This document shows, piece after piece, positions 20,448 to 35,890 of a stretch of 64,000 nucleotides of DNA (position 1 is its first letter; every line of letters starts with the position of its first letter). The notes beneath the pieces were generated by a model. The model had not been told where the DNA came from, ran no database searches, and worked only from the letters and a program-made list of their open reading frames with translations. The stretch comes from Candidatus Woesearchaeota archaeon (lineage in GTDB: Archaea; Nanobdellota; Nanobdellia; Woesearchaeales; GW2011-AR4): the NCBI GenBank assembly GCA_016185945.1, contig JACPMR010000004.1, forward strand, positions 1 to 64,000, in the 5' to 3' direction. The position numbers and the translations under genes are program-made.

Positions 20448-20600
20448 GTCAATCACTAAAACGAGAGCGACTTTGCTAAGGTAAGCAAAAAGAAAGTGAA
20501 CTGCTTTTGCAGATGCACTATCTATACTAGTGATAAAGTGCAATAGTAGAGGCTGTGGTTCTCTCATCACAAAAGCAGTTTCAGGGAAGCCCTATTTTTG
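20448..20600 (+). repeat. Dispersed structured element F1
   Basis: Begins TCAATCACTAAAACGAGAGCGAC and ends with a block (20548-20592, GAGGCTGTGG through CAGGGAAGCCC) about 80 percent alike to 29471-29515 in F3. CTGCTTTTG pairs with CAAAAGCAG. A second partial start, TTCAACCAATACGAGAGC, lies at 20393-20410. The rest of the 20264-20737 gap is AT-rich promoter sequence for 20738. Confidence 0.55.
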
Positions 20601-33330: not shown

Positions 33331-33347
33331 TTTATTTTTAGTTAAAA

Positions 33348-33465
33348 GCCTCCGGCCGGAGTTGCACCGGCGACCTCAATCCGGTCATTGGACCTGCGGA
33401 TGGCTTGCAGCAGCTACAAGTTTCGGCTAGACAATCCGCCGCAATAGCTGCTATGCTACGGAGGC
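33348..33465 (-). tRNA. Intron-containing tRNA with long variable arm (Leu or Ser type)
   Basis: Acceptor stem GCCTCCG/CGGAGGC (33459-33465 with 33348-33354), T arm 33355-33371 with loop TGCAACT, and anticodon stem GCGGA/TCCGC (33435-33439 with 33396-33400). The loop between is 34 bases, so an intron of about 27 bases is present, holding a CTTGTA/TGCAAG hairpin. The 23-base stretch between anticodon and T stems indicates a class II tRNA. I could not fix the anticodon: no single splice position gives an obvious Leu or Ser anticodon. Confidence 0.8.
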
Positions 33466-34366: not shown

Positions 34367-34459
34367 GACTAATTTCCTTGAAAAATTCATTTATAAAGCT
34401 TTCTATTTGTCGCTATAATTTTGGAAAATTTTTTAATGAAACCTTGTTTAGAAGTTCCT

Positions 34460-35656
34460 ATGCTAATAGGAATCGTCGGCAAGCCAAACTGCGGAAAGAG
34501 CACATTCTTCAAGGCGCAAACCCTTGCAAATGTGGAAATAGCAAATTACCCTTTCACAACAATCCATCCTAATCGCGGAACAGGTTATGTACGAGTCGAT
34601 TGCGCAGACAAAGAATTCAATGTTAAATGCAAACCAAGATTCGGGTATTGTATTGGGAACATTAGATTTGTGCCTGTCGAACTTCTTGATGTGGCTGGAT
34701 TGGTTCCAGGCGCCCATGAAGGCAAGGGCATGGGCAACCAGTTTCTTGATGATTTGAACCAGGCAGATGTCCTTATACACATAATAGATGTTGCCGGCGC
34801 AACAAGTGAGAAAGGCGAATCAGTCACGCCTTTAAGCTACGACCCCGCTAATGACATTAAGTTTCTTGAGCACGAGCTAGATATGTGGTATTTGAGGCTG
34901 ATAGAAAAAGGCTGGGACAGGTTTGCAAGAAGTGTAAACCAGGAGAAGCCCGAGCTGAACAAAGCAGTTGCCAAGCAGCTAAGCGCATTAAGGGTGAATG
35001 AAAAGTTGATTGAAAAAGTGATGCAAAAACTAAAGCTTGATTCAGACATAATGAAATGGGACAAAGCTGCATTAATGAGCATTGCGACATTGCTCAGGAC
35101 TGCGACAAAGCCGATGATAATTGCATGCAATAAAATAGACGTAAACGGAGCAGATGAAAATTTTGAGAGGCTAAAGCAGGAATTTCCGCAGCATTTGCTT
35201 GTGCCTTGCAGTGCAGAAGCAGAGCTGGCATTAAGGGAAGCGGCAAAGCACGGCTTGATAAGCTATGCTTCAGGCGACACTGATTTTGAGATTGTAGATG
35301 AGTCAAAACTGAATGAAAAGCAGAAAAATGCGCTGGAATTCATAAAGACAGGGGTGCTCCAGAAATACGGCTCTACAGGAGTGCAGAAAGTGCTTGACAT
35401 GGCTGTTTTTGAGCTTTTGAATTATATTGCGGCTTATCCTGTGGCAACAAGCAAACTGACTGACAAGGAAGGGAATACATTGCCTGATTGTTTCTTAGTG
35501 CCAAGGGACATAACTGCCGTAGAATTTGCATTTAAGGTTCATACAGACATAGGCAATAATTTTATAAAGGCAATAGACCAAAAGACTAAGCTTGTCATTG
35601 GAAAAGAGCATAAATTAAAACATAGAGATGTCATAGAGATTATAACCGGCAAATAA
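34460..35656 (+). CDS. ychF: YchF/Obg-family GTPase
   Basis: A 398-residue protein. LIGIVGKPNCGKSTFFKAQT is the P-loop, LLDVAGLVPGAHEGKGMGNQFLDDLNQADVLIHIIDVAGA holds switch II, and CNKID gives guanine recognition. The C-terminal 70 residues are a TGS domain (DITAVEFAFKVHTDIGNNFIKAID). Family members bind ribosomes; bacterial and human YchF prefer ATP, while archaeal forms keep the NKxD motif. The inner ATG at 34460 is the family start. Confidence 0.9.
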   Translation: MLIGIVGKPNCGKSTFFKAQTLANVEIANYPFTTIHPNRGTGYVRVDCADKEFNVKCKPRFGYCIGNIRFVPVELLDVAGLVPGAHEGKGMGNQFLDDLNQADVLIHIIDVAGATSEKGESVTPLSYDPANDIKFLEHELDMWYLRLIEKGWDRFARSVNQEKPELNKAVAKQLSALRVNEKLIEKVMQKLKLDSDIMKWDKAALMSIATLLRTATKPMIIACNKIDVNGADENFERLKQEFPQHLLVPCSAEAELALREAAKHGLISYASGDTDFEIVDESKLNEKQKNALEFIKTGVLQKYGSTGVQKVLDMAVFELLNYIAAYPVATSKLTDKEGNTLPDCFLVPRDITAVEFAFKVHTDIGNNFIKAIDQKTKLVIGKEHKLKHRDVIEIITGK

Positions 35657-35695: not shown

Positions 35696-35890
35696 GCGTC
35701 GGTGGTCTAATGGCTATGACTCGAGCCTTCCAAGCTCGGTATCCGGGTTCAAAACAACGGCGAAGAAAAAGCAGATTAGAAAGGGCGTTAAAAACAACAA
35801 GCGCGAGAGCGGCTTGTCGATAAATGCACTAAAAAGCCGCTTGCATCAAAGCCAAACAACTTCATCGTTATGGAATTCCCGGCCGACGCA
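35696..35890 (+). tRNA. tRNA-Gly (TCC) with intron in the T loop
   Basis: Acceptor GCGTCGG/CCGACGC, D arm GTC/GAC, anticodon stem CGAGC/GCTCG with loop CTTCCAA (anticodon TCC), T stem CCGGG/CCCGG. After TTC (35748-35750) the T loop is broken by about 123 bases; AATT at 35874-35877 completes TTCAATT. The mature tRNA would be 72 bases. Inside the intron, GCGGCTT and AAGCCGC form a hairpin, and AACG/CGTT near the borders may form the splicing motif. Confidence 0.85.

Follow-up and report, generated by a model that had tools for sequence, protein, structure and literature searches.

A tRNA-Gly(UCC) gene of a Woesearchaeota archaeon, a member of the DPANN archaea and not of the Thermoproteales, is interrupted in its T loop at position 59/60 by what is, with high confidence, a 123-nt archaeal bulge-helix-bulge (BHB) intron; judged from sequence, the gene is the sole detected and functional gene for this tRNA, and the intron interior has probably been enlarged by a hairpin repeat. 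The gene lies at positions 35696-35890 on the forward strand of the window, the 64,000-nt stretch of DNA that was analyzed, with a GTPase gene (34421-35656) just upstream, and the tRNA gene is followed by a T-rich stretch (Table 1). A sequence-only reading of the window had described a tRNA-Gly(TCC) whose stems become perfect once 123 T-loop bases are removed, and direct reading agrees: the acceptor stem (GCGTCGG/CCGACGC), D stem (GTCT/TGAC), anticodon stem, and T stem (CCGGG/CCCGG) are all intact, as are the anticodon loop CTTCCAA with anticodon TCC and A73, and exact removal leaves a canonical mature tRNA of 72 nt with the T loop UUCAAAU. As expected from an interrupted T loop, ARAGORN called no tRNA at these positions, and Rfam gave only a partial, subthreshold tRNA match of 20.9 bits. 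A 100-aa open frame running through the tRNA and the intron crosses the tRNA exons and was therefore dismissed as coincidence.

Table 1. Features of the interrupted tRNA-Gly(UCC) gene in the window, and rtcB loci of relatives
Feature	Position	Strand	Remarks
TATA-like box TTTTATAAA	35664..35672	+	Roughly 28 nt before the 5′ end of the mature tRNA; putative, from sequence and archaeal promoter spacing
Exon 1, tRNA-Gly(UCC) positions 1-59	35696..35753	+	Ends TTCAAA
BHB intron, 123 nt, position 59/60	35754..35876	+	
Exon 2, tRNA-Gly(UCC) position 60 to A73	35877..35890	+	
BHB central helix, 5′ strand UUCA	35748..35751	+	Pairs with 35871-35874 (UGGA)
BHB central helix, 3′ strand UGGA	35871..35874	+	
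5′ bulge AAA	35752..35754	+	Cut after second A
3′ bulge AUU	35875..35877	+	Cut after U at 35876
Intron helix, 5′ strand AACG..GAAG	35756..35765	+	Pairs with 35860-35869
Intron helix, 3′ strand CTTC..CGTT	35860..35869	+	
Match to two intergenic repeats of congener G004 (84-85% identity)	35789..35827	+	
Intron hairpin AGCGGCTT/AAGCCGCT	35808..35841 (arms 35808-35815/35834-35841)	+	Probable variant or remnant of dispersed hairpin repeat
rtcB loci of relatives	L358-L360, L363, L367, L370, L391-L394		

Several pairs of cuts would leave a 7-nt T loop. The BHB rule (a 4-bp helix, two 3-nt bulges, and a cut after the second bulge base) selects one, 35753/35754 and 35876/35877, so the T-loop location and the length of the sequence-only reading are right, and its junction between TTC and AATT moves to after TTCAAA. 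Folding the borders, a check that reading had proposed, gave a BHB with four of four pairs in the central helix UUCA/UGGA, one of them G-U, and with bulges AAA and AUU on opposite strands at the splice sites. The exon helix is CCGGG/CCCGG, and the longer intron helix has 8 of 10 inner pairs; next to the bulges, the outer helix pairs at 4/4 and the inner at 4/5, where a C-A mismatch adjoins the 5′ bulge. With this mismatch and the G-U central pair, the motif is slightly imperfect. Among 20,000 dinucleotide-preserving shuffles of the intron, four of four central pairs arose in 0.98%, and none of the shuffles also reached 8/10 inner pairs. RNAfold of the precursor tRNA predicted both the inner helix and the body of the tRNA (z = −2.69); in the minimum-energy fold, the T-loop ends are open and the short central helix is absent.

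In the proposed pathway, the precursor would fold so that T-loop UUCA pairs with UGGA at the intron 3′ end, leaving the two bulges; the tRNA-splicing endonuclease would cut after the second base of each, and RtcB would join the exon ends into the continuous T loop, probably with release of a circular intron. The genome encodes both enzymes. One endonuclease gene was found, coding for 197 aa with PF02778 and PF01974 (G000:C9, L162), and over-threshold matches number at most one in nearly all of 39 relatives (two in G012, at contig ends); these searches may have overlooked a partner subunit that has diverged. The closest solved structure is 3iey_A, and we take the nearest solved relatives to be this Nanoarchaeum equitans alpha subunit and Methanocaldococcus jannaschii EndA. 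At the place of a long insert in 2cv8, the enzyme has the short stretch YGELLDDGRAQLSLIE, and the Crenarchaea-specific loop linked to relaxed splicing appears to be absent. Rich non-canonical introns go here with an apparently simple enzyme, but most of the introns keep the strict motif. The RtcB ligase (PF01139) is encoded by a gene that is itself interrupted.

The introns of relatives were located by spliced alignment of a mature tRNA-Gly to their loci, an automatic procedure in which a few weak alignments may be misassigned. Among 70 genomes with a Gly-UCC gene, chosen by similarity to that gene so that the fractions are not an unbiased census, about 33 have a 59/60 intron (13-192 nt) and 23 are intronless; 20 genomes have a D-loop intron, 24 an anticodon-loop intron, and 9 an insert scored at 53/54. 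Intronless orthologs align exactly over the 59/60 junction. A T-loop intron, which the sequence-only reading had called unusual, is so only outside this lineage, being common in Woesearchaeales; its description as long for a tRNA intron holds in that 123 nt lies near the top of the published range of 11-129 nt (PMC4090602), but relatives reach 192 nt. At a fixed register, 34 introns at 59/60 formed 121 of 136 central pairs, against a mean of 60.8 and a maximum of 78 in 2,000 shuffles, and 22 of the 34 had all four pairs (shuffle mean 1.0). The corresponding figures were 32/32 for the 53/54 introns (n = 8) and 62/64 for the 20/21 introns (n = 16). Two relatives, G004 (L165, G004:C74) and G020 (L256, G020:C26), have four introns in a single tRNA-Gly(UCC) gene, in the D loop, in the anticodon loop, at 53/54, and at 59/60; their 59/60 motif is weaker, with 3/4 central and 1/5 inner pairs. 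Placed on a tree of the GTPases from 30 genomes, the 59/60 label requires eight changes and is no more clustered than shuffled labels. The window intron would be one of a lineage-wide set of BHB introns that have been gained, lost, and transposed.

Targeted searches and sampled stretches of the same genome (G000) revealed more such genes. A pattern search with inspection of tRNA context by eye found T-loop interruptions in eight further tRNA genes, and searching for longer introns added a tRNA-Glu, bringing T-loop introns to at least 10 tRNA genes with the window gene included; a further tRNA at C9:124684 looks alike. An intron family ACAGCTTTTTT...AAAAGCTGGYGAAAG occupies the T loops of different tRNAs within each of three genomes (G052, G032, and G034) and is also present in G033 and G020, which shows that introns move, as was described for Thermoproteales introns by Fujishima 2010 as summarized in PMC4090602 and PMC4033280. 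No full-length second copy of the window intron was detected in its own genome, where its matches are short and weak. Nearly identical T-loop introns (TTCTCTCAGNAATGAGATGAAT) are seen in several different tRNA genes (G000:C2:2530, C2:2988, and C9:124684, and also L296 in G018). An apparent tRNA-Ser T-loop intron (G000:C8:22531-22612; L270, L271, L274, L279, L280, L304, and L305) has a core, GAGCTTYGCTTGTTGCCTGACTTAACA, conserved genus-wide, which may be an intron-encoded small RNA. With introns allowed, ARAGORN also calls a tRNA-Asp(GTC) on the reverse strand of the window (33347-33465) and gives it an intron of 27 nt; since the gene spans 119 nt in all, it may carry a second interruption.

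The interior of the window intron resembles repeats dispersed elsewhere. Its match to two G004 intergenic repeats has E values of 9.4e-6 and 3.3e-5, and longer copies of the repeat in the genus carry a palindromic core. The window's own genome has dispersed copies of a short form, ACGAGAGCGACTT-N-AAAGTAAYCCGCTT, which recurs within the tRNA-Glu T-loop intron; pieces of this hairpin repeat, some enlarged by the palindromic core, lie at window positions 20461, 26414, 29415, and 35803 and at L371, L376, L381, and L390. The GCGGCTT/AAGCCGC hairpin noticed in the sequence-only reading is present as AGCGGCTT pairing with AAGCCGCT, and the window copy, a partial match only, is probably a diverged or internally deleted version of the repeat. 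The 10-mer GCGAGAGCGG, in which that reading saw a resemblance to the start of its F elements, has one exact and one near match in the window, no more than chance; the repeat signal emerges only with longer sequence and other genomes. The suggestion that a mobile element had been captured holds in part, in that the interior resembles a dispersed repeat found also in the tRNA-Glu intron, but the ends that determine splicing are ordinary BHB sequence. Because of these ends, the repeat looks like cargo, and the intron is probably an ordinary BHB intron in which a hairpin repeat landed when it was already spliceable, supplying the extra length.

That the whole intron is instead a mobile element which inserted in the T loop and was tolerated since it happened to be spliceable seems unlikely, though this reading accounts for the interior match to dispersed repeats, and the ACAGCTTTTTT...AAAAGCTGGYGAAAG family shows that whole-intron transposition does occur in this order. 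The repeat similarity, however, is confined to the interior and leaves out the BHB-forming ends; the introns at the same site in the close relatives G006 (21 nt) and G005 (31 nt) are free of the repeat, favoring an older short intron that was later enlarged; and a full-length second copy, as noted, was not found in the genome.

A disrupted pseudogene, the tRNA having been destroyed by the insertion, is extremely improbable. The failure of ARAGORN and Rfam to call a tRNA would fit it, but the exon stems are all perfect, the insert makes a BHB at the correct register, and orthologs have introns of different lengths at the same position. The sequence-only reading had named an intact second tRNA-Gly(TCC) gene, with this one not expressed, as the sign of a pseudogene, and neither Rfam nor BLAST with the gene found a second one in this genome, which is 90.7% complete and so leaves a small chance of another copy in the missing part; the sole other BLAST match is a Gly-CCC gene, which the genome has alongside Gly-GCC. 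GGA accounts for 44 of the 148 glycine codons in six window genes, and this heavy use, with no other Gly-UCC gene found, makes a dead gene unlikely. Retention of the intron for an encoded small RNA, such as a guide RNA, is a slim prospect: the internal hairpin is stable, and archaeal tRNA-Trp introns can hold box C/D RNA (PMC4090602), but no relative has a conserved version of the interior in its tRNA-Gly intron, and Rfam matched no family in the intron or elsewhere in the window. Woesearchaeota rRNA genes do have group I introns (PMC6125680), yet a self-splicing or decayed group I intron can hardly be credited here given the 123-nt length, the clean BHB ends, and the lack of a group I core by covariance model (Rfam).

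The gene for the splicing ligase carries introns of the same kind. The rtcB gene of this genome (G000:C4:25399-26757; L341, minus strand) has two inserts with in-frame stops. Removal of 33 nt by the BHB rule at TGGGGAT/ACGGTT (4/4 central and 5/5 inner pairs) brings back the WGYGFP motif that intact relatives have, and the same site is occupied by 30-31 nt in G002, G009, G012, and G024; the 12-nt insert of G000 showed no BHB at the tested register. Two other sites are occupied in further relatives. Around its active-site motifs, rtcB has up to four sites with BHB introns, and splicing by the rule restores the conserved protein at three. The mRNA encoding the splicing ligase would then itself need splicing. 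PMC7714728 names cbf5 as the sole previous case of an additional BHB intron in an archaeal mRNA, and our literature search found no report of one in rtcB. About 50 nt around the 12-nt insert are identical in rtcB of G000 (L341) and G005 (L360). The GTPases of these two species share 81% identity, and the rtcB identity hints at gene conversion or transfer in the recent past. In G019 (G019:C18:40122-42944) and G025 (G025:C23:14066-16891), the rtcB matches are split over one open frame of 992 or 1021 aa, which suggests an intein close to where the introns lie.

The structure of the window intron is of a known type; the surprise is the pattern across a little-studied lineage. We tentatively suggest, as a possibility somewhat short of even, that mobile non-canonical tRNA introns spread in Woesearchaeales in an independent burst like that of Thermoproteales and reached four in one gene, that the endonuclease is a single subunit without broad-specificity loops, that introns grow by uptake of hairpin repeats, and that BHB introns in the ligase mRNA feed back on the system. 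T-loop introns escape common tRNA finders, and Woesearchaeota genomes can therefore look tRNA-poor when the genes are present in interrupted form. Genomes with and without an intron can be paired many times over at a single gene that is often syntenic, which makes intron gain, loss, transposition, and growth traceable in this order. Since the only enzyme detected is an apparently loop-less single subunit and most introns adhere to the strict motif, Woesearchaeales also test the view that rich non-canonical introns accompany only heteromeric endonucleases with a special loop.

The non-canonical BHB introns of Thermoproteales (Sugahara 2008 and Fujishima 2010, as cited in PMC4033280 and PMC4090602) have the same structure and the same positions, 20/21, 53/54, and 59/60, and, in those accounts, likewise occur several to a gene and in similar form in different tRNAs, implying transposition. 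Woesearchaeales, as DPANN, are on the other side of the archaeal tree, and two of the relatives examined here, with four introns per gene, exceed the maximum of three given for Thermoproteales in a 2014 review (PMC4033280), as the longest introns exceed the published range. N. equitans, a DPANN relative with split and intron-containing tRNAs, supplies the closest solved endonuclease subunit, but its enzyme is heteromeric (3iey A/B), whereas searches of Woesearchaeales detected only one subunit gene in nearly every genome, and the window tRNA-Gly(UCC) gene is not split. Micrarchaeota (ARMAN), with the epsilon-2 endonuclease (PMC12397907 and PMC6379350), are likewise DPANN with introns at unusual positions; their enzyme is a three-unit fusion, in contrast to the 197-aa single unit found here. 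The archaeal cbf5 pre-mRNA intron (PMC2738675 and PMC7714728) differs from those of rtcB in gene, lineage, and sites, and the product of rtcB would be the ligase for its own message.
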